Part shown: in pieces, positions 17,201 through 50,900 of the stretch | Layout: each line of letters begins with the position of its first letter | How positions within the stretch are numbered: position 1 is the first letter of the stretch | NCBI GenBank assembly: GCA_008933995.1 | Contig: WARS01002905.1 | Coordinates: 62,001 to 126,000, forward strand | Reading direction: 5' to 3' | Source: Datnioides undecimradiatus | Lineage: Eukaryota > Chordata > Actinopteri > Lobotiformes > Datnioididae | DNA: 64,000 nucleotides | Program-made: the position numbers and the translations under genes | The notes under the pieces: generated by a model | Seen by the model: only the letters and a program-made list of their open reading frames with translations | Told to the model about the DNA's origin: nothing | Databases searched by the model: none

Positions 17201-18874
17201 ATCCCAGATAGGTAGACCAGAGCACCAGACCCCCAACTCCGCAAGACACTATAGACTGAACACAGACAGCCATGACCAGGAATGAACCTCAAGACTCCAA
17301 AAAAGCCACTTTGAACCATTGTCGTAGTGTTCTTCTTCTTCCTGGTCTCCTTCACCATGGACATCTCTGAACAGTGGTCCATATCCAGCAGCTGGTTCAA
17401 GAACCTGTACTCTACAAAACTGGGTCCAGTCAGTATCCTTCTCACTGGAGAGCTGCTGTTCCAGGTCCCTACATCCAGTTATTGCAGAAACCCTGACCCT
17501 TAACTCAAGCTCAGTCTAGCCCCATGCATGCAAGCCAAACCACCAGGTGCTCTTCAGCTACAGGACAGGGTCACTGTCCTTCTAAGGGTCAAAAGGGTAC
17601 AGAGATTCCTCAGACATGAGAAGGTGGGAGTTCTTGGAGGCCTCAGTGAACAGGACACAACATTTATACAGACAGGCTGGTGGTTTAAGACTGTCCTGAT
17701 TGAGCTGTACTTGGAGCTAGCTGCTCTAAACTAGTTTCAGTCTTCGTGCTAAGCTCAGCACAACATGTGCAGGACACACAGATTAAGCTGATGTCCATCT
17801 GAAACTTTAGAGAACACACAGAAAACACACTGTGGCACTGTTCCTTTAAACATCTCAAACTGATCTAAGCTGTTTCCATCAAAGGTGACAACTAAAGTCA
17901 AACAGATGAAGGACAACGTGAGCCACACCTCAGGTAAAGTCAGGCTCCTCTGCTGTCACTCAGGTTCTAACAAACCTCCACTGTCACGTCTAATTAACCT
18001 TCACGTTGTCTGTTTAAGGTCTAGTGAAACTGTCAGAGCTGAAGGGAAGCCCTCTTCCTTTGAGGTCACTTCCTGTTGCTGACAGTGTGATGACTCAGAG
18101 AGAGTGCGGAGCCTGCGAAGAGGAGCAGGAGGAAGAGGAAGAGGCAACTGCAGCAGTCAGGAGGAGAAACAGGAAGTCAGCAGCAGCAGCAGACGGGGCG
18201 GAGATAAAGGTCAGAGGTCGTCGGCAAAAAGATTTCGATCCGGCGGCAATGGAGGAAGAGGAGGCACAGCCTCAGGACAGTAAGGAGAAGGCAGACCCTG
18301 CCATTTGGACTCAAAACCAACAGAAACTACTGGAACTCGCTCTGCAACAATTCCCCCGAGGAACCGCAGAACGCTGGGATCGCATCGCCAAGGTGGTACC
18401 CGGGAAGACGAAGGTGTGCACTAACAACGACCTTCATGACAGTTTAATTCAGTGCAGTTTCATTTGTACAGCCTCAAATCACAACAAAGGTTATCTCAGG
18501 TCAGTGTACACACAGCAAACAGATCCAAACTGTGTTTGGCCCGCAACTTAGGCCGACACCCAGTGCTGCAGGGACAGAGTGTGTGTTCCTGATCCTCAGC
18601 TGACTTATGTCTGTAAACCTGCTGTGTCGTACCTCAGTGATGTCATCTTGTGTGCAGCCACAGTAACACAAGGTGTTCGGGTCATGTTGCCGCAGGAACC
18701 TACCTGCACTGACCTGGCAAATGCAGACTTGTGTGTGATATTGATTTGTAACTTATTGATTATTAAATATTGATTGACTGACTGATCTGTGTTGTTTTTT
18801 TCCAGGAGGAGTGTATGATTCGCTACAAGGTGTTGGCAGAGCTCGTTCAGAAGAGGAAACAGGCTAAAAGCTGA
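13708..18874 (+). CDS. dnajc1: DnaJ homologue subfamily C member 1 (ER J-protein with SANT domains)
   Basis: Hsp40 co-chaperone of the ER membrane. The family's J domain faces the lumen and recruits BiP; the SANT-containing part is cytosolic. Twelve exons: 13708-13866, 14888-14989, 15231-15277, 15382-15547, 15650-15747, 15823-15916, 16005-16089, 16422-16585, 16703-16822, 17885-17933, 18019-18413 and 18806-18874. Phases close to 1548 nt, giving 515 aa (human about 554). Features in order: signal peptide (LVVCLTLLVSSPSPLTAWDA), J domain with LHPDKNKDENAETQF (HPD motif), membrane segment (LAFLLFLILTVGHYAVIWSI), a lysine-rich stretch, SANT1 (WTEDELSLLSRLMVKFPGG, GRWDKIAQELGRSVTD) and SANT2 (WTQNQQKLLELALQQFPRG). 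The end, KRKQAKS, resembles the human KKKQAKS end. Start 13708 gives a proper signal peptide. Intron 1 ends in a very long pyrimidine tract. AATAAA at 19138-19143 is a plausible polyadenylation signal. Confidence 0.95.
14213..14262. repeat. AAT microsatellite in dnajc1 intron 1
   Basis: A run of AAT trinucleotides with TGATAATGATAAT interruptions. Confidence 0.9.
14409..14886 (+). repeat. 478-bp degenerate CTGTCT pyrimidine tract
   Basis: CTGTCTCT-type sequence, with TTGTTCTGTCT and CTGCCTGTCT variants, fills the intron right up to the acceptor of dnajc1 exon 2 (exon starts 14888). All six frames are open over long distances because of the composition. The long serine/cysteine/leucine or arginine/glutamate/threonine frames are not genes. 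Confidence 0.95.
16303..16410 (+). repeat. Minisatellite of about 41 bp (2.5 copies) before dnajc1 exon 8
   Basis: CTGTGTTCAGTTTAACTTCC followed by TGTCTGAGCTCTGTCACCTG occurs twice plus a partial third copy, ending about 12 bp before the acceptor of the exon at 16422. The array may supply the polypyrimidine tract of that acceptor. Confidence 0.75.
16823..17884. other. dnajc1 intron 9, no gene seen
   Basis: A 1.06-kb intron between the SANT1 exon and the 49-bp exon. The frame on the minus strand at 17101-17445 has no recognisable domain. It may be an old repeat, but I cannot name it. Confidence 0.35.
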
Positions 18875-19903: not shown

Positions 19904-20587
19904 GTAAGTCAACATTATTTTTCTGAATGTCTGAAATGTTCATCTTTTATTAAAATAGCGGGAATACTGCGTGATAAACTTCGGACTAGCGGAGTGAAGC
20001 TAACCGGCTTTAGCTAGCTGACTGACGTCACAGTTCCCCGCGAGCTCAGAGCTAACGTTGATGAAGCAGCTGGCAGCAGACAACCAGACCTCAGCTTTCA
20101 CAGATTAACCGCAGGGACGGGGACAGAAACTGTCCTTTGACGCTTCAGGATAAGATTCATAATACTAATGTAGGTTCAAAATTGCCTGGATAATGTTACG
20201 TCACCCAGTTTCAGTGTTGAAATACACTGAAGACTTCACCAGAAAATAGTTCAGGAACTTTTTCTGATTGTTGGCTCATTGTTGTTCATGCCTACTGGTC
20301 AGACAGAACATGTTCTAACATGGTAGGTTGATGGACGGAGCAATAGGACCACATGTCAGTACCCCAGAACGCAGAGTAGTCATGTCACACAGCTGTTGGA
20401 TCAGACTGACTCAGGTTCAGTTGCTGTTCCTACAAAAGTGGACATCAAGTGTGGAAGTTAACCTGTAGCTCCAAGTGTTGTGTTGATCCGACTTCCTTCT
20501 CATGAATCAGCAGTGAATTAATTCAGATATATTCAGGTACATTTACCTGTCTGTCTGTCTGTCCTCCTCAGGTGTGATGTAGCAGTC

Positions 20588-21838
20588 ATGTCCCTGCAGG
20601 TGACGTTGCAGCAGAGAATCAGCTCCGCTCAGGTGTTGCTACAGCGGATGGAGCAGCTCTGTCAAGGTGTGGAAGGTCACCAGAAGCTCTGCGCTAAACT
20701 CAGAGCAGAGCTACGCTTCCTGCGACGGGTGGAGGCTGGAGAACTGCAGGTGAAAGAGTCTCACCTGCACAGCACTAACCTGACACACCTGACGGCCATT
20801 GTGGAGTCGGCAGAGAGTCTGGAGGGCGTGGTTGCTCTCCTGCACGTCTTCACCTACCAGGACTCTGCTGGCTGCAGGCAGACTCTGGTGGTGGATGTGG
20901 TGGCTAACAGGGGACACACCTGGGTGAAGGCAGTGGGCAGGAAGGCAGAGGCTTTGCACAACATCTGGCAGGGGCGTGGCCAATATGGAGACAAGAGCAT
21001 CATTAGGCAGGCTGAGGACTTCCTGCAAGCCAGCCGCCAGCAGCCTGTCCAGTACAGACACCCCCACATCGTCTTCGCCTTCTACAATGGGGTCTCCTGT
21101 CCCATGGCCGACCGCCTTAGGGACATGGGTATCTCTGTCCGCGGGGACATAGTCGCTGTCAATGCTGTGGTCTCAGAGGAGGAAGGAGATGGGGGGGGGG
21201 AGGGAGAGGTACAGGGGGAGGAGGAGGAGCCAGTTGAAGAGACTGAGGATGAAGAGGAGTCTGAGCTGACTCGAGTTGACCGCAGCACAGTGGTGGCCAG
21301 CCTGGCATTTCCTGCTCAGGTGCAGGTGGAGGAATGCCAACGTGTTAACCTCGACATCACCACACTCATCACATACGTGTCATCGCTGAGTCATGGCCGC
21401 TGTCACTTTACCTTCAGGGAGCCGGTGCTGACGGAGCAGGCGGCTCAGGAACGCTGCCAGCAGGTCCTGCCGCAGCTCAATGCTTTCATGCAGGGGAAGC
21501 AGCTGTTCGCCTGCCGCGCCGCAGTACACGATTTTCAGGTTATCCTGGACACACTCGGGGGGCCAGGTGAGAAGGAGCGCGCTCAGAAGCTGCTTGCACG
21601 ACTCACTCTGGTGGACGACCAGCCATCAGAACGCACGTTGCAACTCACACCCAGCGCCAAGATCAACCACCGCTCGCTCATGATCTTTGGCACTGGAGAT
21701 TCACTGAGAGCTGTTACCATGACGGCAAACAGCCGATTTGTCAGGGCAGCAGCCAATCAGGGAGTCCGATACAGCGTGTTCATCCACCAACCAAGAGCTC
21801 TGACGGAGGGCAAGGAATGGAGGGCCACACGCATCTGA
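20588..21838 (+). CDS. c7orf25: UPF0415 protein C7orf25 homologue (DUF1308)
   Basis: Single coding exon of 416 codons plus stop, close to the human length (about 421). The family is conserved in animals but has no firmly established biochemical role that I can state. Recognisable segments are the N-terminal helical part ([20 protein letters not shown]), [20 protein letters not shown], the core [38 protein letters not shown] and the C-terminal [20 protein letters not shown]. Between the two halves (residues about 195-235) is a Glu/Gly-rich acidic linker, [12 protein letters not shown] onward, encoded over a run of ten G at 21191-21200. The start ATG at 20588 follows the intron acceptor closely and begins the conserved N terminus. 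AATAAA at 21996-22001 follows 158 bp after the stop. Confidence 0.93.
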
Positions 21839-22704: not shown

Positions 22705-23886
22705 TAGTGGTGTGCGATACTGCATATTTTGGTATCGATCCGATACCAAGTAAATACGGGCCAGTATCGCCGATGCCGATACCGATACCTTTCAATAAAT
22801 AAGGTGGATGCGTCATTGAATTGCTAAATCTCAATTAATTTTCATGACCTTAAGTGTTTTTTGTGATGTTAACTTTTTTATTATTAAATAGTTAAAACCC
22901 AGGACAGAATTAGGACAAAGTTTATAATTAAATAGAAAATGCTTTATTATCAATTTTTTTTTTCAGAAAATAAATAAAAAGTGCACGCAAACCAGTAAAC
23001 AAATTTAAAACAAACAAGTACTGTTGAGAAACTATAATACAAAAATTAAATTAAAATTCTCAACAACAAAAACAACTGGTGAAAATATAAATAATCTGTA
23101 AACAGCTTAACAACCCCCAAAGCCTTTAGTTAGTCTGTGCAGAACAAAGGTTTTGGTTACAGGTTTTTGTTCAAGAACAGTATGATATTAACATTTTTTG
23201 CTTTTAATGCACTTCGTCTGTGACTCTCTAAATGCCCTGCTTTTGAAAAATTCCTCTCAGCTGGCACTGATGTTGCAACCACTGCCAGGTATTTTTTGGC
23301 AAGTTTGCTCAGAGAGGGGAATGTTTGTTCATTGTTTTTCCACCAAAAGTAGTGGATCCTGATCCCGAGGAATTGGCCTTTCCTCAGTGTACCTGCGCAT
23401 CTCAATTAGGGCATCAGTGCCAGTTGTCCGATGCTGCTGAGAGGCTAGGACTTTAGAGTCAAATTCTTCCCATATCCCACCTTTTGCTGTTGTCTCGTTT
23501 TCGGCTTGAAAATACAGCCACACGGCGCTCCTCTTCCTCTCTGCCATTCTTCTGTTGTATTTTCTCTGTACGTGTGCTGATGAACCTGAGCCGGCAACTT
23601 GCTTGTTTGTTTGCTTTGTGCGTCTAAGTCACGTCACGTGACTCACGTGACGGCGCAACATCTAAACACAAGAGGGGGGAGGGGGAGCAAAGTGTGCCTG
23701 CTCTGCGCTGACATAGGAGCGGCGAGTCCGGCGACCTGGCTGTTTCCTCTTTGCCGAAACCGCAGCACTGCAAACAAGAGCGGAACTTAAAGTAAAGAAT
23801 CGATCTCACCAGGCTAGTATCGATCCGATTCCGATACCGACTTGGTATCGATACTATCGATATTTGGATCGATCCGCCCACCACTA
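22705..23886 (-). mobile_element. Internally deleted hAT transposon
   Basis: 1182 bp bounded by the 8-bp duplication TTTCCTAC (22697-22704 and 23887-23894). The terminal sequences are TAGTGGTGTGCGATAC at the left and GATCGATCCGCCCACCACTA at the right. Subterminal GGTATCGAT/CGATACC repeats occur on both sides. The transposase remnant lies on the minus strand. Confidence 0.93.
23157..23547 (-). pseudogene. hAT transposase remnant (start of BED finger plus dimerisation domain)
   Basis: The frame starting at 23547 begins MAERKRSAVWLYFQAENETT, like the opening of a ZBED-type finger, but loses the cysteines. A second frame (23405-23157) carries the hAT C-terminal dimerisation signature: WWKNNEQTFPSLSKLAKKYL, then ATSVPAERNFSKAG and an R..L..KNV.. 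end. The frames are offset near 23345, and the whole central catalytic region is missing. It cannot make an active transposase. Confidence 0.88.
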
Positions 23887-24037
23887 TTTCCTACTACAGC
23901 ATGCCTTACACTTGGTTGTAACTGTTTTTGGGCGAATGAGAAGTTGATGCTTTTAAAATACTGGAAATAAACAAAACCTTTAATAATTCACTATAATATT
24001 AAATGTGTTTAAAGCTAAAATAATTTATTATGTTTCT

Positions 24038-24098: not shown

Positions 24099-24101
<3 letters not shown>

Positions 24102-24205
24102 CGTTGCAGTGCTTTTAATTTAAAAATCCAGAAGCGGATGTAGGAGTGTCAGTTAAAACCCTCCGGACGGCAGCCTGTTAGCCTGCTAGCAGGTGGTTAC
24201 AGACT

Positions 24206-24226
24206 GATGCGCCGAGTTTGGGGGTA
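24206..24226 (+). other. Six-codon upstream ORF just before the UEV-RBR start
   Basis: ATG CGC CGA GTT TGG GGG TAA (MRRVWG) ends two bases before the main ATG at 24229. If the transcript starts upstream of it, ribosomes would meet this ATG first and could need to reinitiate. Whether it is in the mRNA is unknown. Confidence 0.4.
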
Positions 24227-24228
24227 AA

Positions 24229-27200
24229 ATGCCGAGAGTTGGATCTGAGGCGGAGCTGCGGACTCTAACGGAGGTTAGAACAAAACTTTAAGCCTTAAAC
24301 TTCAATTCAAAATCAAACTTTGTTAGTCAGAAACAACTTTTATCTTGACCTGCCGCTGACCGGCTAGCCAGCGAGGCTAACAGGGAGGATGAGCTAATGC
24401 TAAAAACATCTCTCTCATGTCTTCTGCTTTCCCTCTCATTCCCTTGTCTCCTTCTCCTCTCCTCCTCCTACTGCTCGCCTCTCCTCCTCCTACTCCCCCC
24501 TCCTCCTGCTCCTCAGTGTCAGTACAGTTATCCAGTGGAGACTCTGTCTGATCTTCAGAGCGTTCGCTCTCGGTTTTCTGATCTTCGTCTCTATGTGGAC
24601 TTTTACTGTAAGTACAAAATGTTTCATTCAGCAGATGAGGCTGCCGTTCAACTTCCCGCGCGTCTTTCACAATAAAAGCATGTTTCCAGGTTTTCCAAAC
24701 AAAGATAAGAAGAGGCTGGTATACCTGGCGGGGACTGTTCCTGTTCAGTATGAAGGTGAGTGTGTCCTGTCTGGTGTCAGAGCCTCCGACCGTCAGTCTC
24801 ACAGCTGATTTCACCAAACTACTCTGGCTGAAAGCAGCTCGTTTCATACGTCTGCAGTATTCACATCCAAATATTCCCAACTCGTCTCACGAAACATGTG
24901 TCCTCTTCCTGTGGCCCAATTAAAATGGTGGAGTCTGGCCTGGGTAAGTCTGATCAGCCTGACCGATCAGTCTGGCCAGTCTGGATTCAGTCTGAATGGT
25001 TGGTGTGGTCTGATCTGGTCAGATGTAGCCCAGTCTGTCCTGGTCTGGGTTGTGCTTTAGTGTGTTCTGGTCTCATTTTGTTGACACATTGCCATGTGTC
25101 TTTGCAGGAAGTGAGTATAATATCCCAGTGTGCATCTGGCTTCATGAAACCCACCCAGTGTCCCGACCTCGCTGTTATGTCTGCCCCTCCGTCTCCATGT
25201 TGATCAACCGGTCCTGTCCCTATGTGGACGATTCTGGCAACATCAGTCTGGACGGACTGAAGAACTGGACTCATGTAAGACTCACTGAGCATGCTGACTT
25301 AGACTGGCATGGTTCATCTGGTTAGTTGCTTGGTGAGTTGCCTGGTTAGTTGTCTGGTGAGTTGGCTGGTTATTTGCCTGGTACTCCATCGGTTGTCCTC
25401 TGTTTACCCCCTCCATGTAATGAGGTAACAGACTAAATGAAGCAGTTAATGTCAGCATCCTGGCAGAGGTTTGCAGATGTCTGCAGAGTATCTGAGCAGT
25501 GAGTTTCCTGATACCTGGAACTAACCCTCTAGCCCCCTTTTCAAAATGTGAACCGTTACCCTGGTCTGCCAGTCCATAGGTACTGGACTCAACCAAGAGA
25601 GTCCAACAATGTCCAGAGGTGTGGACAGGTAGAGCACAATGGTGAGTGTATAGAAGCAGTAAATCCTGCTCTGAAAGTGTCCGGGTATGTCTGATGCCCC
25701 CACTGGAACTAGCACACTGGAGTTGTTGCTGCTGACAACGCAGCTCCACAGATCAATGTGTATTCAAACCTTTTGACAGGAGTTACAGCTGTCCCAGACG
25801 TTACGGCCCCTGCCTTCACCTGCTGCCCCGCTGGTAACACACTCAACTATTACATCCAGTGTAGTGACACATCAGAAAAAGCAGTCGGACATGAATGGTT
25901 GGTTAAGATCGGGGGTCTTTGATGATACATAGAAAAAGTGGAAAGACCTCCTGAACAAGACCAAGAGGAAATGTGTAGAAATGGTCATGAAGGTTTACGC
26001 CCAGTCTCAGTCAGAGGACAGTTTGAACCTCAGTCCACAACCGGCGTAATTATTAGTTTGGACTTAAAACACTAAAGCTCTGACCAATGTACTTAACCAA
26101 CATTAGACTTAACTTAATTCAGCCCCTGGCAACACAGACAACTCGTATACAAACCAGTTCACCATGATGCCCTGGCTTGGTTCTTTAACTGCAAACTGAC
26201 TGTTTCATGAAGAGAGGAGTGAAGTTAGCACCGGCAGAACCCTCCCAAATGTGATTCAGGTAAAACTTTCCCTGCAGGAAGGTCAAAGTGAAGTTCCTGT
26301 TAAAGGTGTCCATAACATTGTGTTTCAGGGTGTGTCCAACCTGTCACTGCTAGTGTCAGAGATGAGGCAGGCCTTCCAGAAGGATACGCCGCTTTATGCC
26401 AGCTCTGTTGTCCGAGCTCCGCCCCCTGCAGGTGTTCACATGTCCCAGTCAGCAGGAAGGTCAGAGAGTTCAAACTAAACGATGTCCGATGTCCCTCTTA
26501 ATTTGTCAGTGATTCTGACGTGTGATTATTGATCATCAGTAACTGAACAGTTATTAAACTTTCCCCTCCTGCAGCATCCAGCACCCCACCTCCATCCCCT
26601 CCTCCTCCTCTCCCATCCGGACCAGCACCTCCTGCTCTCCACACAGCAGTCATCTCTCCCACAAACAAAAAGGTAAACTTCCTACACATGTTAAATATTA
26701 AATGTGCTAAATGTATAACATTTGTGTGCGTGTGTGTGTCTCTAAGGTGACCTAACACCCCTCTGCCCCCATGTTGCAGTTAGCCAGTGGGAGCAAACCA
26801 CAGAGGTGAGGGTGGGAGGGTCCTATACTGAGGAGCTGCTGGGGATCGACTTCAGTGCTCCTCCTTCCTCTTCCTTGTTCAACAACCCCTTCCTGAGCTC
26901 CTCCTCCCCCTCAGGTGAGACAGTGGCAGGAGACACCTGAGCTGATGGTAATGAATGGGTTTGTGTGACTACACATACAGGTAAGGTCATATGACACCTG
27001 TGCACTTCTTTAAAGCTGGCATGATAGATGAATTCAAGCGCCTCCTCAGGGGCAGGGGGAGTTAGAGGTGAGGCATAGGAAGTGAGTTGAGAGGCTCAGG
27101 TGTAAAGCAGCTTCTCGGCTCATGGTAGACAGGAACAGTACAGGTGGACCTTCTCTCAGAGGAGATGGTTTCATGATGAAGACTCACCTTCAGCTTGATT

Positions 27201-30200
27201 CATCATGAATGATCAGTGACACAGTCAGCAGTGTGTCTCTGAGTGAACTGTGGAGCTGTAGACATGCATCACACATTGATGTGATCGTCCATGAATGAGC
27301 TGAGAAACGTGAGATGGTGCAGAATTTGTTCTTCACTGTTCCTCAGTATCAGGGATCCAGTGCTGTGCCATGTGACACTCCACAGCCCTGCAGTCTGTTA
27401 CGGTGCAGAAGGATTTCACTTCTACAGTCTGTAACAGCTGCTCCTCCACCTGGTCCTTGTCTCTTCAGGTGTCCCCCCTGCAGACCCTCTCAGCAGAATG
27501 ATGGGAGCTCTGAGGCTTCACAGCGAGTCCAGCAGAGATCAGCAGAGTGCATCACCTGTAGAAATGGTCGAATCAGAATCAGCCACAAACAGACACATGC
27601 CAGGCTCTGGACCAGCAGCTAAGGGAGGTCAGTCACAAACAGCACCTGGAGTGGATTACATCAAGGTGAGGAGGACTACTGGCATCAGCAGGTCTCATCT
27701 GGTCTGAGGAGGTCTCAACAGACCTTACTTGAGCACTCAGCAGGTCTCAACAACTTTTCAGCTGGTCCTTCTGCTCCTTCTTCTTCTCTCAGATGGCAGC
27801 AGGTCTTCCTCAAGGCCAGGCAGCTATCTTCTTGTCTCTGATGACCATGGAGGGGCGGCGCTTCATCCCCAGTGATGTCATGGAGGCAGTACAACTTAAC
27901 AGAGATTTCTCATCAGCCTTTAAGTTTCTTACTCACAGCTGTCCCATCTGTCAGGAGCAGGTGTCCTTCAGTAAGGTGAGAAACGCATGATTTGTCTCAG
28001 CCAGTCAGAGACCAGAGAGCCTCATTCATGCTCTTCTGTCTGTGTCTCCTGTAGATCATCACCATGACTCACTGCTCCTGTTTCCTGTGTCAGACGTGTT
28101 TTAAGACGTTTTTCTCGTCTGCCATTAAAGAGAAGAGCATCGATCAGCTGGTCTGTCCTCAGTGTGGCAGACCTGACGTCAGAGGTCAGGGAGGGATGGA
28201 GGAGGCCATGGACTACTTCAACCTGCTGGACACGCAGGTGAGGGGGCCAGTATTCACCTGGACACGCAGGTGGGGGGGCATTTCTCAGAGCTTGAATGAG
28301 CTGTGACCATTATCATCTCTGACTCTAATCTAGACTGAACTGGGCCAAATGGACAGTGAAATAAAACCATGAGCTGTCAGAGGAAGCAACTCTCTGATTA
28401 GAAACAGCAAATCAAGAAACTGAACTTTAATTTCATAAATCTAGGACCAGGACTATTGAGCTGCAGCTGCTCTTCAGTCTGAACATGAAGAAATCAGTTT
28501 TAAACTAATGATTCACTTTTTCTGGTTCCCTCATTATAATGTTATAGGTGTCTCAGCTGCTAAAGACCTGAGTGATGTTTGTATCTGTTGCAAAGAAACA
28601 ACTGTGTCACGTCACCCACTGATTCTGTCTTTGGCTGCAGAGGCTCAGTTATTTCTTTGTTTGTGTGCAGATCCGTCATTTCCTGCCCCCTCAGATCCAT
28701 GAACTCTTCCAGAGGAAACTCAGAGACAGAGCTCTGCAGGAGATGCCAAACTTCCGCTGGTGTGCTCATGTAAGGACGTCAGAGACTAGATCACAAACTA
28801 AATTAGGATTGCAGAGACTAGATTCGGTCAGGGACTAGAGCAGGGTCTAGGTCAGAACCTCAGAGACTGTTAACATGCAGTCTGTCCCTGGAGAAGGTTT
28901 CAGTATCAGGTATAACTCATTAATACTGGTGTAAATATACCTTAACTGAAATCAGTCACTGAGACCAGACCACATCTAGAAGTGGTCCGGCTCACTTTCC
29001 CGTCAGACCTCAGCAGGTGAATATGGACGTGAACAGAATGACTTCCTTCACAAAGCACGAGTCACATGTGTTGGAGATGTTGCATCTTTCATCTCCACCA
29101 TCTACCTGACCCACCTTCCACATCAGCTACCTGCCAACAAAACGCGTTTTATGAATGACTTACTATTCTATACTACTATAACACAGTTTTGTTTGCAAAT
29201 ACACAATTAACATATAAGTGTTTAGTTTTATTAATTCCAAACAAACTTAAACAAACAAATACATGTCCTTGCCTCGAAATATCAAACTAATTCTAACAAA
29301 AGATTGAAAAACGGAAACCGTCTCCTCTGAAGTCGTCTCCTCGTGATGCTCCCGGCACTCTTGAGGACATCTGTGGAGAGCAGCAATTGTGTTGCTGCAG
29401 CTAAAACACTGTGTGTGTTCTCAGTGCTGTGTGTCCTGATGGAGAAGCAGAGCTCCACCTGTCACAGTTCAGGTGGTTGGTGCTGATTCTCCTCCCGCCT
29501 CAGAGCGGTGCAGACAGTCTAACCCTGGGGGATGAATTCACGATGAACAACCCCGCGACTGTGGGATGAGACAACCAGCATGTCTTCCTGATCTGACGCA
29601 GACACTTCCCTCTGTGACTCTGCAGCTTCTCCACTGCTCAGTCTGCTGGTTGCTTTCTGGAGACAAACCTCAGCTCCATCAGGCTCTGACTCTCAGGCTG
29701 AGGGATCAACTCTGGGTTTTATCTTGTGATCATCCACAACATGAAGCTTTCAACCTGATTTTCATGTTTCCTTCAAGTTTGAGTTCCATGGTGACGATGA
29801 GCAAACAAGCATGGGTCGGATTTCAAACGTGCACCTGCAAGTGGTCGCAATACTGCTTCCTTGTTACAGAGTCATGCTGCGTTCAGGAGCAGCAGCCACC
29901 ATCTAAAAACATTTTGTTCTTACCTCATAGTTCAGGTCTCACAAATACAAAACAATACATCCTGCAGAGATACAGAAGAATGACTGACCAAGACTCATAC
30001 TTTTCCTTTAAAATGTCCTGAGTAATTCACCATCCACAACAGCAAGTGGTGCCATTAATGTTAACACATCGGGAGTTTGAGCAGAGGCAGGCCGACGACC
30101 ACTGTGGACAAGAGCGTGACATGTTCTGTCCAGCTAAGCTCAATCAAAGAAGATGAGTCACCTGAGCCAACATGTGAGTCTGTGGGTGTTTCTGGTGAAA

Positions 30201-33200
30201 AATCAAAGGCAAAGATAATATTAATTAGAAGAAGATAACGTTGACCTTTCACCATGGTGATGCCACTGTACATATCTGATGTACATTCCTTTTACTGTTG
30301 GCTGAGCACACACTGCCAGGCCAACACAGAAGTCACCACCTGGATTAAACTAGTCTAATAGGTTAGAGTCTTCCATGGAGAAGCACTGTAGTGGTCAATA
30401 TGTGTGAGCTGGCACATGGTATTCAACTGATGAAGGTCTTTTCTTTAACATCCTGTGGTCATGGAAAAGATGTTCCTCTGTTTCAGAGAAGTCAAACTAT
30501 TGGTCTGCATCAAGCAAAGTGAACCATAAGAACTGTGCAACACATAATTTAACCCTGGAAGGACAGTGGTGAACCATCATCTGTGCCGTCCAGAATCACT
30601 GGGATGTCCTGGAGAAGACTTTACACAGACGTCCAATTCCCCCATTGTCAATACAAGATCTCAGATCCAGAAAATTGACGTGAAGTGTGGACGAACATTA
30701 ATGTAGGGACATTTCATAAACTTACCAAAACGAACACGCGCTATAATCAAAGCTACAGACTGTCCAAAGAAACAGCGTGTGTGACTTGTTCTTTGGCCAG
30801 GAGTGTTCGAAGGCACAGAGCAGCCAAAAACCGATCTCACCATCCTCAGACACACATCACGTGTGCGACATGAAATCGTCTTCACACACTTGAAAACTGT
30901 TTCTGAAATTCTGTTAAAGCTGATGCCGGTTAGTGTTTTCTTTATTCTTCTCTTCCAGACCCGGATCAGATCACAGTCAGACCCTGATCAGACCCCAGTC
31001 AGACCACAGTCAGACCGTGATCAGACCCTGATCAGATCACAGTCAGACCCTGATCAGACCCCAGTCAGATCAGTCAGACCGTGATCAGACCCTGATCAGA
31101 TCACAGTCAGACCCTGAAGTCATGTGACTTTTTTTTATTTGTGAATTGCATTTGTTTCTAAATTGGAATCGATCAGAAAGATAATGTGTACTTATTTGTT
31201 AATTGTGTTTGGTATCTGTGACCCACACAGTCAGACTCACCAGACATTTGTAAAACAATTTTCTTTGTTCGCAGGACACTAATTGTGTGTGTGTATGTGT
31301 GTGTGTGTGTTTCAGTGTTCATTCGGGATGCTCCATGAAGCTGACAGGTTGAGGATGGACTGTCCCAGCTGTAAGAAGAGCACCTGCTCTCAGTGCCGAT
31401 CACCTGTAAGACACACACACACACACACACAGCCCTTCCAGCTGGTCACAGATCAGAACCAGGCCCTTCAGTCATATACTACATACAGTATCACTGTCCG
31501 CTGACATGGACCTGAGACCAGCCTGTTTGTGTCTGCAGTGGGCTCCTCAGCATCAGGGACTCTCCTGTCACCAGTTCAGACTGTGGCAGCAGCAGAACCA
31601 GCCAGACCAGCACAGCAGCCTGCTCAGCTACAACAGCATCGGTACAAACACATCATCACCTCCAAAATCTGGACCTGAAATCACACAGTCATACACAGAA
31701 AGGCAAGGCAGAAAAAGACACAAACGATGTGGCTTCTGGAGACACAACACATATAAGGTAAAACAATTGACAGTTAAAAGTGGGAAAGTAAAGACAAGAG
31801 ATTCACAAGATAACAAAATCAAGAGGTGAAAATGACAAATCAAGGAAAGTTGACAGGAGCTCTCTGAAGTGCAGGTCCTGAAAGTCTTTGGCTCCTTGAG
31901 GAGCAACCCGAAGTCCTTGAAGCATCTGATGTGTTTTCTTCACCAGCATTAAAGGATCGTGATGCGTCTTCTGTGATGTAGACTCTATCTGAAGCTTTCC
32001 ATCTCGCCCATTAAGCCGGTTGATCCTAATAGGATGGTTACTCCTCCAGTTTTGATCCTGTGCACAGTTAATTCTCCATCACAAGTCAAGTCACAATTTC
32101 TCTCAATTTCTATTGGAATGATGGTCAGAGAAAGTTATGTCTGTAGGTAATTAAGTGTATTTAGAGTGTGTTGTCTTCTATTCTGTTTCTCAGAGTGTCC
32201 AAACTGTCAGTTTGTCTTCAGTCTGTCTAAAGGAGGCTGTCTTCACTTCACCTGCAGTCAGTGTCAGCATCAGTTCTGTGGAGGCTGCAGTCAGCCCTTT
32301 GCTCATGGATCTGTGAGTTTGTATCTGCTCTGATCTTCTAGTTTCTTTTCTTAAATATGCAGGTTTCATATACTCAAGGGTCACATTTCTTTCTTATATT
32401 TCACGAAATAGTGTGTTGTTTTTATTGCTGTTTGTTTTGTTTTTTTTGCTTTTAATTAGTTAAAACTGTCATATCAGTCTCATCATCACATTACAGTCCA
32501 GAAAATATGTGTAAAATGTGTTGCAGCTGCAGATGTGTCTGCTCTGTGCAGCGACTTCTGCTCTGCACCATCTGCTCTGCACCATCTGCTCTGCGCTTTG
32601 TTGTCTGTTCTCCATCTGCTCTGCAGTGTCTCCTCTCTGCACTGCCTGCTCTGCACCGTCTGCTCTCTGCACTGCCTGCTCTGCACCGTCTGCTCTCTGC
32701 ACCACCTGCTCTGCAGTGTCTGCTCTCTGCACCATCTGCTCTCTGCGCCATCTGCTCTCTGCACCGCCTGCTCTGCAGCATCTGCTCTGCCCTCTTTAGT
32801 GACACCAATATATTACCTCAAGCTTTTTCAGCATATATGGGAAATGTTTTAGTATTTGTGCTTATTGAGAACTTATAAGCTGAGACCTTGCCCGTGATAG
32901 ATGTAACGGGCCGATATCATCATCACACTCTTTGTCAAGATTTTGGCCTTTTATATCCATTTTGATTCAGCCTTTCATGTCGTCAGGCTTGTGGTTTCTC
33001 CACCCACTGTGGGACCAAAGGTCTTCATGCCCACCACCCAAGAGACTGCCTTTACCACCTGAGAGACTGGAGCGTGCCCCGGCTACACCTGCTGCTGCAG
33101 GTAAGAACCAGGTGGTGCTTTGAGGGCTCAGGGGTATGCAGGTGATATGCAGACAGTACTGGTGAGGTGTGAACAGGTGATGAAGTGCGTTGTGCTCCTT

Positions 33201-34085
33201 GTCTCTCAGTATTGCAGACTGTCTCCCACCTGGTTGGAACCAGCCAAAGGGCACTCACCTGACACCAATCAGACAGGTAAGTTCTTCATCTGCTTGATCA
33301 AGTGGAGTCTTTTCTCTAGCACACTGAGTGACACGTGCGTTCATTTTCAGGCGTTTGTTTGGTTTTGGAGCTCAGAGATGATAGCGGCAGACGGGAGGAG
33401 CCCTGTGGACAACCTGCTCTACCTGAATTTAGAGGTTACTGCCAGTAAGACCACTGCTCCAGAAATAGCCCCCCAGTCTGATCCACCATGGACTGATCCA
33501 GGACAGTCTGATCCAGGATAGTCTGATCCTAGACTTGACTGATTTACCTGCATAAGTGTGTTGGTCTCCTCATCAGGTGTTTCATTCTGACAGGTTACAC
33601 TATAAAGAGCGTTTGGTGGAGCTGATAAATCGTTTCCATGCCGACCCAGCAGTCCTGTTCACCTCAGCAGAGATGATGGCAGAGCTGCAGCGATGGCACG
33701 TCACAGTGCCAACCAGGAAAGCAGAGGAACCAGAGTCACTATATGCGCACCGCCTGCGCCTGGTCAGTGACTCAGCCTTTATTATGTTGTCACCTGTGAG
33801 TCACTTCATGCTAATTTGACACACTAACTCTCACACGTGTCTCCAAAAACCACATCGTTTATTGACGAGGAGCTAGTATCAGATCATTTTCCAGAAATGT
33901 TCTTGTGCTGCCGCCTCCCTGCCAATCACAGTACAGCATCTTGTGTGTCTCCTCAGACTCTGACCAATAGCATTCCTCTCAGGAAGCAGCGGGGCTCTCC
34001 ACTCAAACTCAATGATGACGTCTGTCCTCTGACTTCGGCTGTGGCTCCTGGAGCTCCGCCTCCTCACCTGTTGCTGAGTGACTGA
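24229..34085 (+). CDS. Predicted UEV-RBR-LDD ubiquitin ligase (TSG101-like UEV fused to HOIP/RNF31-like RBR)
   Basis: Nineteen exons: 24229-24273, 24517-24607, 24690-24755, 25108-25274, 26329-26459, 26575-26672, 26780-26914, 27469-27665, 27793-27975, 28055-28237, 28671-28769, 31316-31405, 31539-31641, 32194-32312, 32987-33100, 33210-33276, 33351-33444, 33594-33762 and 33957-34085. Phases close to 2280 nt, 759 aa. Residues about 1-148 are a UEV fold; Y66, Y71, N72 and M98 sit where TSG101 has its PTAP-pocket Y63, Y68, N69 and M95. About 149-300 are Pro/Ser-rich. RING1 starts at C360/C363 (SCPIC), followed by an IBR (CPSCKKSTCSQC) and RING2 with SKGGCLHF, catalytic Cys about C545. The LDD keeps HHPRDC (R588/D589, HOIP R935/D936) and GYCQLHYKERLVELINRFHA. 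HOIP's PUB, B-box, NZF and UBA parts are absent. By homology it would transfer ubiquitin through a Cys thioester, possibly building Met1-linked chains. The join of the two halves (exons 7-8) is inferred from phase, the absence of an intervening stop and the absence of TSG101's coiled-coil end. The alternative is two genes. Confidence 0.75.
28770..31315. other. Large intron of the UEV-RBR gene between RING1 and IBR exons
   Basis: A 2.5-kb intron. The frame at 29566-30021 lacks splice signals and any recognisable domain, so I treat it as chance. The region 30955-31118 is a tandem repeat (separate entry). Confidence 0.5.
30955..31118. repeat. Minisatellite of GATCAGACC/CAGTCAGACC units
   Basis: Tandem 10-11-bp motifs such as GATCAGACCC, TGATCAGATC and ACAGTCAGACC alternate in higher-order units over about 160 bp, within the intron before the IBR exon. 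Confidence 0.85.
31642..32193. other. UEV-RBR gene intron before RING2 exon
   Basis: A 550-bp intron without visible exon or repeat family. It ends in TTTCTCAG at 32186-32193. Confidence 0.45.
32530..32800. repeat. CTCTGC-based minisatellite in UEV-RBR gene intron 14
   Basis: Units such as CATCTGCTCTGCACC and GTCTGCTCTCTGCACTGCC repeat over 270 bp. Several frames stay open on both strands and give Cys/Leu/Ser-rich or Arg/Glu/Ala-rich translations. These are artefacts of the repeat. Confidence 0.92.
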
Positions 34086-35427
34086 TAGACTCCGCCCATC
34101 CCCTACATGACAGCCAGTGAGGACCCGGCGTCCTGTCTCACTACTAACTTGAATTTGGAGGGGAAGTTTCAGAGATAAAGTGTACTTCTGTGCCAAGTGA
34201 TGCAAACTAACTGACTAAAACAAGTCTGCACCTCAGTCCCAGTGACATCATCAGTCTGTTGTTCAAATGCACTGCTTCTGATTGGCTCGTTAGTTTGTGG
34301 CAGAAACACAGCCAGAGAAACGAACAGACTTCAGCAGAAGAAGAAAGTAAAGTTACCAAACACAGACTTGAGCAGCCAATCAGAGCTGGTGTGATATTCA
34401 CCTTAACGAGCACCAAGAGACACTGTTCTAACAAGCAAACAGTTATTGAGTCTCTTCTCAGTATTTAATTATCCACTTGAGTCATTGTGAGTGTCAGTTA
34501 GCATGTTAGCTTTGTTAGCATGTGCCTGTATGAGCAGGTGAAGTATTTTACTGGGGGGCTGTTGAACCGTCAACGTTGTGCTGTAGCTCTTTCTGCACTT
34601 TAACTGTTTAAATGTATTAAATCTATAATCTCCTCAGTATTTCAGCTGCGTCCCTTCCTGTCAGCTGTTTCAGAGTCAGTACATTTGTCGAACAGGTCTC
34701 ATGAAACCATCACATCAGCTCCTCAAAGCCTCAATAATGTGACCGGATGTTGTTTCTCAAGAGGAATACCACTGAGGCCTGAGAACAGTTTGACGTGTGT
34801 GAGGGAAGTGAGCAGCCCGAGACGACAGCCGTGTTTCTACAGAAGCCCAAACTGGACAAACAGAACACTGGATTTACAGAGAACCCTGTAGGTTCTCCTA
34901 CACCAGGAGAATCAAATTTAGTTCATGGGCCACATATAAGCTAGTTTAAAGTGGAGAGGGCTGGACCAGTGAAACCAGTGCATATTCACCTGTTAATAAC
35001 AACAGGTGTAGGACAGTCTATTGTCACGTGCATCAGACTTCACAGATCATGGTCTACAGACACACAACACCCGGTCACGTGTGCAGTTTTCTAGAAATGA
35101 GCGGTCCTGACATTTTCCTCTGGAGGCTACTGTGCGAGTTTGTTGCTGACTCTGCCAAGTCACTACTACATGTGCTGAAATCCAGCTACTAGATCTGTGA
35201 TGCGTCTGATCCTCAGGTGAGACAGTGACAGAGACACTCGCTGTACTGTAACAACACACGTCATTTATCCATTCACATACACACACTCCTGCAGCCATTT
35301 CAAATTTCAGGTTCAGTAAAATGTTGTGCAGGTGTGATATGAAGCAAACTCGTATGTGTATTTGATATTATGACAAACTTTATTCATGACAAACTTTACA
35401 AACACATCAACTCTGTTGTCTACTTCT
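34086..35427. other. Spacer after the UEV-RBR gene, no gene seen
   Basis: Presumed 3' UTR of the UEV-RBR gene followed by spacer up to the convergent inositol monophosphatase gene. No clear AATAAA lies close to the stop. A TTTATT at 35380-35385 (AATAAA on the minus strand) is about 45 bp beyond the monophosphatase stop and may serve that gene. Confidence 0.4.
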
Positions 35428-38958: not shown

Positions 38959-41780
38959 CTACACTCCATTCACACCTTTTGCTCCACAGATACATGTGTT
39001 GAGGTCCTCGTCATCACGGCGACAGGGAAACGCCTGGATGACTTGAGCAATACAATTAGCCACAGCGGCGGAGCTCGCTGCGATGACTCTCCTCGACATC
39101 ATGTCAAACCCTGTGCCTAAGGAGACGCACAGACCAATGAGAGGAGGACATGGCCCCTGCAGGTAAACACAGGTGAGACATGACATCAAACATCAGTTAC
39201 AGACCCTCTGTATCCATGACGACACCCCCAGCTTCCTGGACGATGATGGCAGATGCAGCAATGTCCCAGCAGTGCATCCCAATGTGATAATAGGCATCAG
39301 CTCCACCTGTCGCCACCTGACACATGTCGACCGCCGCCGTCCCCAGTGCACGAATACTGGAAACACGCAAACAGCACCTTGCAGAGGTCACGATGCAGGA
39401 TGCAGAGAGACACTGTCTCACTACACAAACTGAAACAGACTGTCTCACTGTACAAACTGAAACAATCTGACCTCCTGTCTCACTGCACAGACTGAAACAA
39501 CCTGTCTCACTGTGCAGGGAGGAGGATGTCTGCTGGTGCAGGCTCTCACCCGTGGACAGGAAGTTTCAGCAGTCTGAAGATGTTGGAGGTCATGGTAGAC
39601 AGAGCAAGGTCATCACGTTCTGCTCCAATCTCCGTCACCACTACGCACCTGCTGATGTCTGATTGGAGGACACAGACTAGTCAAAACAAATATGATACCA
39701 CTTTAACGTGCAGAGTACATGTGTGATGTCACATGCGTGATGTAACCTTCTTGCCCCGAGACATGCAATGGCTCTCCGTTCAGGAACGCTCCTCCTCCTC
39801 TCTGAGCATGGTACAGTTTGTCCTCAACACAGCTATACACGATCCCAAACTCGGTCTGACAACAACAGCATGTTAGTCCACTTCCTGTCTGACCTGTAAC
39901 ACTCCACACACACAAACTCACACACACACACTGTGTTTACCTGCTTGTTGACACTAAAGGCAATGGAAACAGCCACAAAGGGAAACCTGTCAGCAGAAAG
40001 AGCATGCCAGGTCAGATTACAGTTTCACATGTAACCACAGTTCTATGAGTGGTAACCACTCTTCTATGAGTGAATGTTCTATGAGTGGTGGTTCTATGAG
40101 TGGTAACTACAGTTCTGTAAGTGCAGGTTCTGTGAGTGGAGGTTCTAAGAGTCATGGTTCTGTGAGTGGAGGTTCTGTGAGAGGAGGCTCTATAAGTCAT
40201 AGTTCTGTGAGCAGGGGTTCTGTGAGTGGAGGCTCTGTAAGTCATGGTTCTATGATGGAGGTTCTATGAGTCATGGTTCTGTGAGTGGAGGTTCTTTGAG
40301 TCATGATTCTGTGAGTGGAGGTTCTATGAGTGGAGGTTTATGATTGGATGTTCTATGAGCCATGGTTCTATGAGTCATGGTTCTATGAGTCATGGTTCTG
40401 CAGGTGGAGGTTCTGTGAGTTGAGGTTCTATGAGTCATGGTTCTGTGAGTGGAGGTTCTATGAGTGGAGGCTCTGTGAGTGGAGGTTCTGTGAGGGGTAA
40501 TGACAGTCCTCACTCTCCAGCAAGACATGTTTTAATTATCAGAGTTGCTCAGAATGAGTGGGGAAACACTGTTTTGGCTGAGTCATCATCACAGTACAGG
40601 TAGATTCCTTTTGTTTCAATAGGTGTGACCCTCCTATCTGTGACATCACAGTATGGGTGGAGCTGCTCACCTGTGTACAAAGTTAACTGTCCCGTCAATG
40701 GGGTCGATGATCCAGGTGGGATTGTCAGTCAGCTCCACGCGCTCACCTGAAGCCACAGACTCCTCCCCGATGAACCTGAGGTCAAAGGTCAAACAACAGC
40801 ACCAGTGACCCGGCGAGCTCCAGTCCCCTGCGGCCAGGTGTTTTTTAGGCAGCAAAGTATAGTAGAACAACGATAGAACAACAGTAGAACCTGTGATGTG
40901 GGTACTTGTTCCTGATGGCAGAGATCAGGATCTTCTCGACTCTTTGATCAGTCTCTGTCACCAAATCAGCCGGAGAACTCTTCAGTTTCACCTCTTTCTG
41001 CTGCTGAAATGCCGACAGGACAATCTGAGAAAACACATGTTGGTATTAACAGCAGTTGCCGTAGTTGCTGCAGTTGCTGTGTTGTTGCAGAATCAGTTGT
41101 AGACATTGTTATTCATAAGTGTTTGTATTAAAAGTACTTTACAGAATGAACTCCCACTAATCACTCAAACTGTGACAAACTAATAAAGTTCTTTGAATCT
41201 AAATTAGAAACTGAGACAGTCAGTCAACGGAGCAGCCAATCAGCTGAGCCATCCATTACATTGACAAACAGAGCTGCCAATCAGCTGCAGCGGGCTGGCT
41301 TTGACAGCAGCTGTGAGTCCAAGCCTGAACAGAGCTTTGTATGTGTGTGTGTGTGAGTGTGTGTGTGTGTGTGTGTTATAGGGTGTGTTTGTGTGTATGT
41401 GAGTGTGAGCGTGTGTGTGTGTGTGTGTGCAGGTGAGGGTCGTTTATCAGCTCAAACACAGAAACTTTTATTCTTTCTGTTCTGTTTTTATCAAAAAGTT
41501 ACAAAACTGTGAACTGAAGCTGAACTCATCATCACCCCTCCCTGCAGCTGATTGGACAGACACACTACCTGCTGTGCTGCAATTGGTCGACAAATCCGAT
41601 ATTTTAGCCATTAAAACTGAAACACATTCATCTTCTGCAGAGTCAGTAATGTCTTGGACATCAGGTCAGTGACATCACCCCTCTGCAATCTGTGCTGTGA
41701 TTGGTCAATGTAGCTCTTACCTCACTGGCCTGCTTGGTGATGGAGATGCCAAAGTTCAGACAATCGGTCCAGTCGGCCAT
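38959..41780 (-). CDS. Inositol monophosphatase 1-like (tandem copy B)
   Basis: Eight exons on the minus strand: 41780-41721, 41024-40891, 40775-40671, 39986-39941, 39855-39747, 39658-39550, 39356-39205 and 39116-38959. Together 873 nt, 290 aa. Exons 2 to 7 have exactly the same lengths as copy A (134, 105, 46, 109, 109, 152), so this is a tandem duplicate. The catalytic motifs are kept: [21 protein letters not shown] (second Thr of the usual DGTTN replaced by Val) and [16 protein letters not shown]. The C terminus has CRRDDED like human IMPA1, then 13 extra residues ([13 protein letters not shown] and a final V). Three donors are poor matches to the consensus (GTTCTA after exon 2, GTTACA after exon 5, GTCTGT after exon 7). 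A TATA-box promoter lies upstream. Probable function is the same as copy A. Confidence 0.9.
40033..40500. repeat. Minisatellite of 15-bp GGTTCTATGAGTGGA/CAT units
   Basis: About 470 bp of imperfect GGTTCTRTGAGTSRW units in intron 3 of the second monophosphatase gene, with higher-order alternation of GGTTCTGTGAGTGGA and GGTTCTATGAGTCAT. Frames on both strands give Ser/Gly- or Thr/His/Arg-rich repeats; these are not genes. Confidence 0.93.
41340..41430. repeat. GT-rich microsatellites in copy B intron 1
   Basis: Two GT runs (about 41341-41374 and 41408-41429) separated by GT-rich sequence. Confidence 0.85.
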
Positions 41781-47900: not shown

Positions 47901-50900
47901 ATAAGCTGACACTTCTGCTTGGCAGACTTCTTGTATTTAAAACCAAAGATGAACATCTGTTTGGAGAAAGCCTCACCAACCTTCCTCAGTAAACTGTCCA
48001 CCAGCAGGAACAGTGGTGCCAGTCGCTCACAGTCCAAGAAACAGTGGAACACGGTTTCCTTTTCAGGACAGAACGGACATTTATTGCTGATGTTATCGTT
48101 AATGACTGACAGAAAGGCGACTCTCCACTGCAGGTCTGCTACCTTCTTTGTCAGAGGAGGCTTGTACAAACACCTCCACTCTGGTTTGACATCATATTTC
48201 AACTGTAGGTGACCTCGCCACGGTGTGTCCACTCTGTTGTGCAAATTTAGACATTTGACCATCATTTTGTAAAACACTTTGCCGTTGGCCTCTTCTAAAT
48301 TTAAATAAGAACGAGTGTCATTTAAAAAACCTGCACAGTCTTTAAAATTGGGATGAACACCCAAACAAGGAAAAGCATCATCTGCTTGAGGTACAGTTGA
48401 ACCACGGCTGTACTCTGTCAGCATGATGCATTCATGTCCAGTCAAGCAATGCTTCCACTGGTCAAGCAGTTTGCTTATGATCCTCATGGATCTCATTCCC
48501 AGTCCAGTGTCCATACGTCCTCCATGCACCACAGGGAGATGCCCTAGGCCAGCCTCTCCTTCAGTCTCCACACGGTGAAAACCCCCCGGTAGAAAGGCGG
48601 CAGCGTCTGGAAACTCAGAGTCTTCAGGTCCATGAGGAAGAGAGAAGCATGCAGTCCCAGACCACTGAACCGCTTCAGGACTGTCTATGCCAGTGGTCTC
48701 CACACCAAGTCTTTAGGTCCAAACAGTCTCTGGACAAACTGAAGGCAGAAGGCAGCGCCTCTACTGGCTAGATGTATGAGGCCCTGTCCTCCTTCCTACT
48801 TTGGAAGAAACAGCACCGCCTGAAGAAATTGACCGGAGTGGCCTGAATCCGGGCGAGCAGGTTCGGAGGAGGATCCACACAAGCAAGTCTGTGCCATAAA
48901 GAGGAGGACACTAGGTTATTAATAACCAGTGTCCGCCCTCTATAGGACATGCTCGGCAAAAGCCACCTCCACTTTCTCAGCTGGCCCTCTATCCTGTCCA
49001 AAGTGTTGTCCCAGTACTTTGCTAAAACAGATTCTTCCCCTAAAAACACTCCCAGGTACTTCAACCCAGCCTTCTTCCACACCAGCCCTGCAGGTAAAAC
49101 TATACTGTTGGTTAGCTTCTGTCCAACCATCACAGCTTCACTTTTGCTCCAGTTTACTTTGGCAGAGGAGAGTTTGTTAAAAGAATCTACATTTCCTACC
49201 AAGACATCAACGTCCCTTTGTGTGTTTGTCACAATCATGATGTCATCTGCATAAGCTGACAGCTTAACAGCAGAGGCACAACCTGGGTAACGAACACCGG
49301 ACAGTTCTCTCCTCAGTTTATGCAGCAGTGGCTTAATGGCGAGGGAGTACAACATCCCTGACAGGGAGCAGCCCTGTCGTACTCTCCTGTGAACCTGAAA
49401 GCAGCCAGGCCTCCATTAATCTTTAGTATGCTCGCAATGTCACAGTACAAAGCCCAGATCTTGGCTACAAAACCTGGGCTGAACCCGAAAGCATTTAGCA
49501 TCTGCCACAGATACTGGTGTTCAACCCGAGAAACAGGTGTCCAGTTCTTTAGATCCTGCAGGTCTCCCTTTTTTGGCAGCAAGGTGATGACTTCTCTCCT
49601 GCAGCTCAGCGGCAACTGCCCTCTCTCCAGAATGTCCTAAAAAGGTCTCCACCGACCTCCGACCAGAAGGTTTTATAAGAATCAATGGGCAGTCCGTCAA
49701 TGCCTGGTGCTTTGCCATTACTGAGACTCATGAGAGCAGAGAACAGTTCATTCAGAGACAGCTGTTCATCCAGTATGGTATTACTGTCAGCATCCAGCCG
49801 AGGCAGTCCATCTCAAAAACACCCAGCCAGCTCAGAGTCCTCCACATACTCCCTTTTGTACAGTTCCTTGTAAAAACCAGTGGCGTACCTTCGGATCTGT
49901 GTTTTCAGTTAAAGCTGATCCGTTGTCTGAGCGTAAGGAGTGAATGATCTTTCTCTGACCATTCTGTCACTCCAAACTAAAAAAGAACTGTGAGGGAGGA
50001 TCCATTTGAGCTGCATTCAGGAACCGTGACCGGACCAGAGCGCCCTGTGCTGTGATGCCCAGCAGGTTGGCCAAAGCAGCCTTTTTAGATTTAAGGGCTT
50101 CAACATGCCCTTCATTTCCTGTAAAATCCACCAGACCTTGCAATTCTACCACCTCAGTCTCCAGATCCTGGAGAGACCAGGTAATGTGCTTGGTAGTGGT
50201 GGGCAAGTGAAGCCTCATGAAGTACCGAGGCTTTCCTAACAATTGTGCCGAAAACGATTCAAAGCTTCAAGACTTCAGTGACGGTGACATCTGGTGGACA
50301 ACTGAAGCCATAGCAACCTCTAAAGAGCACGACTGAAGCACTGGCACTGTTTCAATCCCATGACAGCAATAAAAGTTCAGAAAAGTCTGTGTGGTCATTC
50401 AAGTGTTTTGTTCATTCATACCAAATAATGATTATATTGTCATTACAATAAAATATGCAGATGCTCTCCCCCATACTCTAAAACACCTTCCAGATTAACC
50501 CAAAGAACCAATGCAAATTATATTAAGGGTTAAATGTTGGTTAAGGGTTTATTTAAAGCTTTGAGCTTTATTTAAAAACTGTACTAAAAGTCCCTAACAG
50601 GATTAGAGATCCTTCCTACTTTGCAAATGATCATGGTGTTTGAATTCAGAAACATTGTTTTTTTTGTGTGTGAAACACCGCACCTACAAGCAATTGTAAT
50701 TTTGAGACCCATTTAAAAATTAAAAATACAATTCAATTATGGAAACACAAAATGTATGCCATAAACTGCATTATACCTTATTTGGTGGTATGAGATCAAA
50801 ATGATCCCAAACTAGAGAACGTCGCTTATTGGTGGTACTCGCCATGAAACTTGCCAAAATACTCTCACTCTCCAAATCTCTATCTCCTCACAACCCCATT

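Follow-up and report, generated by a model that had tools for sequence, protein, structure and literature searches.

Does a single gene of a bony fish join a TSG101-like recognition domain to the catalytic half of the ubiquitin ligase HOIP (RNF31), and what might such a protein do? The question arises at positions 24229 to 34085 of a 64,000-nucleotide (nt) stretch of Datnioides undecimradiatus DNA (assembly GCA_008933995.1, contig WARS01002905.1, positions 62,001 to 126,000 of the forward strand), hereafter the window. An earlier reading, made from the letters alone and called here the sequence-only reading, had proposed at this site a UEV domain fused to a RING1-IBR-RING2 (RBR) ligase that ends in a HOIP-type linear-ubiquitin-determining domain (LDD). 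No vertebrate enzyme other than HOIP is known to make Met1-linked ubiquitin chains. Its activity has been read mostly through the linear ubiquitin chain assembly complex (LUBAC) and NF-kB.

One gene model with a UEV domain and an RBR-LDD half

We confirmed that a UEV of the TSG101 type and an RBR-LDD of the HOIP type are joined in a single gene model. The model comprises 19 exons on the + strand (Table 1) with GT-AG at all 18 introns, and its spliced open reading frame (2280 nt including the stop) encodes 759 amino acids (aa) with zero internal stops; the region contains no N letters. The splice letters and the translation bear out the 19 phase-compatible exons, the 2280 nt and the lack of an in-frame stop described in the sequence-only reading, and the residues it had named (Y66, Y71, N72, M98 and C545) are correct, with its HHPRDC motif beginning at aa 585. 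A domain search, which that reading had proposed as a check, found the UEV, the RBR parts and the HOIP C-terminal domain by Pfam and alignment. Pfam matches over cut-off were obtained for UEV (aa 25–145, E 1.4e-36), IBR (aa 445–505), IBR_1 (aa 527–570, covering RING2) and E3_UbLigase_RBR, the HOIP C-terminal domain (aa 601–694, E 9.6e-22). RING1 had no Pfam match and was placed by alignment to HOIP, and no further Pfam family was found at E up to 10. The nearest solved structures by sequence were the human TSG101 UEV for the N-terminal half (E about 1e-23) and the human HOIP RBR-LDD for the C-terminal half (E 8e-88). Judged by the E values, the conservation of cysteines and the intron phases, this resemblance is not due to chance.

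The absence of the additional parental domains had also been claimed, and this held for PUB, B-box, NZF, UBA and Vps23_core (the steadiness box), none of which was matched at E up to 10 in searches where HMMER filters discard most matches above E of about 0.1, which limits these negatives for weak matches. The coiled coil of TSG101 was looked at by Pfam only; the fusion gave no match, and the tsg101 piece itself gave only matches under cut-off. The fusion resembles HOIP in its RING1-IBR-RING2-LDD order, catalytic Cys, acceptor-site Arg and Asp, segment preceding RING1, and intron positions and phases, but it carries an N-terminal UEV instead of PUB, B-box, NZF and UBA. It likewise shares with TSG101 the UEV, most residues of the PTAP pocket and the UEV intron phases, whereas it differs in its ubiquitin-binding site, in an identity of 34% and in having no Vps23_core match, which the tsg101 of the same genome does have (E 5e-18).

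Evidence for one gene rather than two came from the exons between the halves. Reading phases were compatible at every junction, and exon 8 has an open frame that passes into exon 9 in phase 0. The 163-aa linker, scored for coding against a usage table of 1216 codons from the same genome, reached -0.04 in frame compared to -0.18 and -0.12 for the two alternative frames. Intron stretches of equal length had a mean score of -0.45 (standard deviation 0.12), and the highest of 2000 draws was -0.16. Between 26460 and 27793, the four intervals tested had CpG observed/expected ratios of 0.09–0.23, in contrast to 0.78 in 24100–24400 at exon 1 and 1.12 upstream of the gene (23600–24000); a second promoter is therefore not suggested there. 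The sequence-only reading had considered that transcripts ending beyond 26914, together with a separate promoter before 27469, would speak against a fusion. No AATAAA or ATTAAA was found between 26914 and 27793, and the first such hexamer downstream of the stop is at 34616.

Four observations weigh against a single gene. Exon 9 starts with ATG; poly(A)-like AATAAA/ATTAAA hexamers are present in introns 5 and 6 (26553 and 26697); exons 6 and 8 are individually not clearly coding, with a higher score for the reverse frame of exon 6; and stops within introns account for part of the gap between the linker and intron scores. The first two favour a locus with two adjacent genes that only the gene model merges: one short and encoding a UEV, the other a truncated paralogue of HOIP that could begin at the ATG of exon 9. 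We regard this scenario as improbable in view of the phases that fit through exons 5–9, the linker frame that is coding overall, the stretch free of hexamers and the low CpG ratios. Alternatively, the assembly could have joined two loci within introns 5–8, as the source is a contig assembly. This is the least probable of the explanations that we weighed: phases match across three linker exons in a region without N letters, and a second partial copy of either half was not found among the UEV matches (at least 4 places) or the LDD matches (at least 3 loci).

Origin from intron-bearing copies

We performed model searches of the 581-Mb assembly that contains the window; all counts of places are lower bounds. 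The UEV model matched at least 4 places, 3 of them outside the fusion gene. The LDD model gave at least 6 matches at E up to 1, located at no fewer than three loci, namely the fusion and two others designated C389 and C477. Among 9 query pieces from the stretches that precede the RBR of C389 and C477, 8 matched a Pfam family at E up to 10 and the ninth matched none. There were two matches to PUB (one over cut-off and the other 0.6 bits under it), two to an NZF-type finger (at cut-off or slightly above it) and three to UBA_HOIP, as well as a B-box match that fell below its cut-off. Because of these matches, C389 and C477 look like full-length HOIP genes, their N-terminal parts being judged from unspliced pieces. 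Over the RBR-LDD, identity is 75.5% between C389 and C477 and about 60% between either of them and human HOIP; the fusion is 41.0% identical to C389, 41.5% to C477 and 40.0% to human HOIP.

The introns link the fusion to both families. In spliced alignments, all 10 introns of the RBR half have the same phase as in C389, and 9 fall in the same alignment column; the tenth is displaced by a single column next to a gap. All 9 introns that could be mapped to C477 agree in phase and column. In the UEV half, three intron phases and a 66-nt exon agree with tsg101 and two other UEV genes of the same genome. Exon 9, which alone had no Pfam family match, aligns to the segment immediately before RING1 in C389 and C477, and the HOIP-derived part therefore begins before RING1. 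Introns shared in both halves point to intron-bearing DNA copies and not retrocopies. On the evidence of these alignments the fusion is an extra gene assembled from intron-bearing copies of both parents, and it would have arisen when two genomic copies were joined, one of a UEV from the TSG101 family and one of the 3' half of HOIP/RNF31.

As to the age of the fusion, the two other HOIP copies grouped to its exclusion in a four-taxon tree (SH-like approximate likelihood-ratio test 82, bootstrap 80), which is compatible with a split of the fusion before or after the fish-tetrapod divergence. Among 347 columns, the fusion shared its state with both fish copies and not human in 22; in 9 others, where the fish copies agree with each other, it had the human state instead. 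A five-taxon UEV tree for the UEV parent had no inner branch with good support. A scan of bacterial and archaeal contigs returned 26 pattern matches, none a confirmed relative, and has no bearing on other fish; a scan for bacterial promoters and terminators found 0 and 2 sites, respectively, with no bearing on a vertebrate gene.

Other UEV genes were seen in the same genome. A further UEV gene adjoins tsg101 on the same strand (L022 / C334 near 4686700, - strand). About 0.4 Mb from tsg101, on L023 (3516-4975, - strand), a UEV precedes a weak match to Ldh_1_N (E 0.0032, under cut-off), and this gene is UEVLD-like.

Predicted recruitment and chain formation

We think it somewhat more likely than not that the locus is one functional gene in which a TSG101-family UEV and the 3' half of HOIP/RNF31 form a Met1 ligase that acts outside LUBAC and is recruited to endocytic or ESCRT (endosomal sorting complex required for transport) sites. 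The gene model, domains, residues and introns can be read from the DNA, and from these we infer the single transcription unit and all of the biochemistry.

The UEV was compared with the list of TSG101 PTAP-pocket residues in PMC3217271. Of the pocket, Y63, Y68, I70 and M95 were retained, as were N69 and P71 beside them; the TSG101 change M95A impairs PTAP binding (PMC7073217). Two pocket residues differ (F142 to Tyr and S143 to Ala), T92 is Ser, and identity to the human TSG101 UEV is 34%. These differences leave an unlikely alternative, in which the UEV has lost PTAP binding and instead contributes to stability or dimer formation, or engages a different partner among E2s or E3s; PMC12513931 reports that TSG101 protects certain E3 ligases and that UEVLD associates with SHARPIN. 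The retention of Y63, Y68, N69, P71 and M95 speaks against this alternative. Recruitment to PTAP-bearing cargo, as first proposed, may stand on the kept residues Y63, Y68, I70 and M95, tempered by the changes at F142 and S143.

Recruitment through the UEV to ubiquitinated cargo, the other route proposed in the sequence-only reading, fared less well. Changing Asn45 of TSG101 to Ala impairs ubiquitin binding (PMC7073217). In the fusion this residue is Pro48 and Asp46 is Asn, and both weaken the proposal; Val43 to Cys and Phe88 to Tyr are further substitutions. The fusion UEV looks more like a reader of peptides than of ubiquitin. With a mostly kept PTAP pocket and Pro in place of the ubiquitin-binding Asn45, recruitment through peptides is the likelier route, ahead of ubiquitinated cargo.

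In the RBR-LDD, all 28 cysteines of human HOIP are retained, compared to identity at 118 of 337 other aligned positions. Human Cys/His positions differ in the fusion at 7 of 43, every one a His. The equivalents of HOIP Cys885, His887, Phe905, Leu922, Arg935 and Asp936 are present; in HOIP, Arg935 and Asp936 are contacts to the acceptor ubiquitin, and linear activity is lost when they are replaced by Ala (PMC7125101). The claim that the protein forms Met1-linked chains is thus consistent with the kept equivalents of Cys885, His887, Arg935 and Asp936, from which we infer it. Against it, the half is only 40% identical to human HOIP, and the LDD has Leu for Gln974 and Glu for Asp983, where both fish HOIPs keep the human letters; by comparison, the change of Glu976 to Asp and that of His889 are common to, or also seen in, fish HOIPs. 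With the long branch of the fusion (1.18, compared to 0.52 for human HOIP), these substitutions could mean that the fusion is real but has lost Met1 chain formation, making other linkages on its partners or acting as a scaffold. We give this a low probability, similar to that of a UEV without PTAP binding, as the complete set of cysteines and the four catalytic and acceptor-site equivalents speak against it.

If the fusion is an active Met1 ligase, RING1 would take ubiquitin from an E2, pass it through a thioester on Cys545, and build Met1-linked chains while the LDD holds the acceptor ubiquitin. No tether to HOIL-1L/SHARPIN is expected because the HOIP UBA pair is absent, and no hold by OTULIN because PUB is absent; the ligase would thus act outside LUBAC. 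LUBEL, the Drosophila HOIP orthologue, makes Met1 chains without HOIL-1L/SHARPIN and has no PUB (PMC5090701), a precedent indicating that a HOIP-type enzyme can build such chains without any of the three. LUBEL is like the fusion in its HOIP-type RBR-LDD and the missing PUB, but it has B-box, NZF and UBA, and no UEV is named for it in the accessible portion of that paper.

The UEV pocket would bind P(T/S)AP-type motifs and so recruit the ligase to its partners. TAL/LRSAM1 and MGRN1 are also E3 ligases tied to the TSG101 UEV pocket (PMC7073217); they carry the P(T/S)AP ligand, whereas the fusion ligase carries the pocket. UEVLD (UEV3) similarly joins a TSG101-type UEV to an enzyme (PMC12513931), although that enzyme is a lactate/malate dehydrogenase and not an E3. 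The reported association of UEVLD with SHARPIN and protection of E3s by TSG101, noted above, give some precedent for a connection of UEV proteins with linear ubiquitin. In Drosophila muscle, membrane deformation has been linked to linear chains, although zebrafish T-tubules were unchanged after rnf31 knockdown (PMC12778051).

Exon 7 encodes a linker segment, EELLGIDFSAPPSSSLFNNPF, that holds LLGID and NPF. We take LLGID to fit the clathrin-box pattern and NPF to be an EH-domain motif. When the linker was shuffled 20,000 times, the clathrin box appeared in 2.1% of the shuffles, NPF in 0.7%, and both in 0.01%. However, the two were chosen post hoc among eight patterns tried on the whole fusion protein, six of which had no match, and one further match to the clathrin pattern, LMTME, lies at 326 in exon 9. 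Because the choice was made afterwards, the motifs are a lead; they may aid placement of the ligase on endocytic or ESCRT membranes.

A bolder extension, offered tentatively and in our judgment unlikely, is that the protein is a LUBAC-independent Met1 writer on P(T/S)AP proteins at clathrin or ESCRT membranes, including viral late-domain Gag or matrix proteins, where it might serve as an innate sensor or budding trap. The same extension would make the fusion a Rosetta stone for an overlooked functional link between ESCRT-I and HOIP in other animals.

If the functional reading is true, vertebrates would have a second ligase with a HOIP catalytic half, bearing a TSG101-type recognition head, and immune-signalling chemistry would be placed on membrane-sorting targets. 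The gene would then be a natural test of linear-chain roles at ESCRT and endocytic membranes, and of vertebrate HOIP chemistry without HOIL-1L and SHARPIN. Since both halves have solved relatives, the main claims are testable by single residue changes (C545A and M98A).

The novelty lies in how known domains are combined, in an order that would alter targeting. Beyond the sequence-only reading, we add the pre-RING1 segment in exon 9, the shared intron pattern, the two further HOIP genes and the clathrin-box/NPF linker. No UEV–RBR protein was named in the titles or abstract starts among the matches listed from the open-access literature, a scope that leaves aside subscription papers and protein databases. 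Orthologues of the fusion may well stand in automatic annotations under RNF31-like names. The 'RNF31-like' entries of salmon and trout (PMC12575339, PMC6723134) were considered and, from the accessible portions, are not attributable to the fusion rather than to other HOIP copies.

Exon coordinates and neighbouring genes

Table 1. Exons of the UEV–RBR fusion gene, in window positions.
Feature	Position	Strand	Content
Exon 1	24229..24273	+	ATG start, aa 1-15; CpG observed/expected 0.78 in 24100-24400
Exon 2	24517..24607	+	UEV begins; intron phase as in tsg101
Exon 3	24690..24755	+	UEV; 66 nt as in tsg101; equivalent of ubiquitin hairpin (N45 to P48)
Exon 4	25108..25274	+	UEV core: Y71, N72, M98
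Exon 5	26329..26459	+	Final UEV helix; linker begins
Exon 6	26575..26672	+	Linker, Ser/Pro-rich
Exon 7	26780..26914	+	Linker: LLGID aa 219-223 (clathrin-box-like), NPF aa 235-237
Exon 8	27469..27665	+	Linker
Exon 9	27793..27975	+	HOIP pre-RING1 segment, first RING1 cysteines; 3' intron position as in C389/C477
Exon 10	28055..28237	+	RING1
Exon 11	28671..28769	+	Between RING1 and IBR
Exon 12	31316..31405	+	IBR
Exon 13	31539..31641	+	IBR end, linker to RING2
Exon 14	32194..32312	+	RING2: Cys545 (HOIP Cys885), His547 (His887)
Exon 15	32987..33100	+	HHPRDC; Arg595/Asp596 (HOIP Arg935/Asp936)
Exon 16	33210..33276	+	LDD
Exon 17	33351..33444	+	LDD cysteines
Exon 18	33594..33762	+	LDD
Exon 19	33957..34085	+	C-terminus, TGA stop

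Two tandem arrays lie in introns of the fusion gene, at 32537-32788 and 30956-31117, with periods of about 30 and 33. The nearest gene found upstream is a 438-aa open frame at 20522-21835 (+ strand) with DUF5614 and DUF1308, presumably C7orf25-like. Farther upstream on the + strand, a weak Myb match under cut-off (18018-18548) belongs to a frame that we take to be DNAJC1-like, and pieces of a cadherin gene include a cadherin repeat at cut-off (425-790) and a cytoplasmic tail (8761-9300). Downstream of the fusion gene there were matches to inositol monophosphatase (39200-39565, - strand), RIO1 kinase (54181-54789, - strand) and Rpp40 (57146-57661, + strand). A reverse transcriptase fragment (RVT_1) at 48771-49415 on the - strand possibly lies inside an intron of the RIO1 gene.

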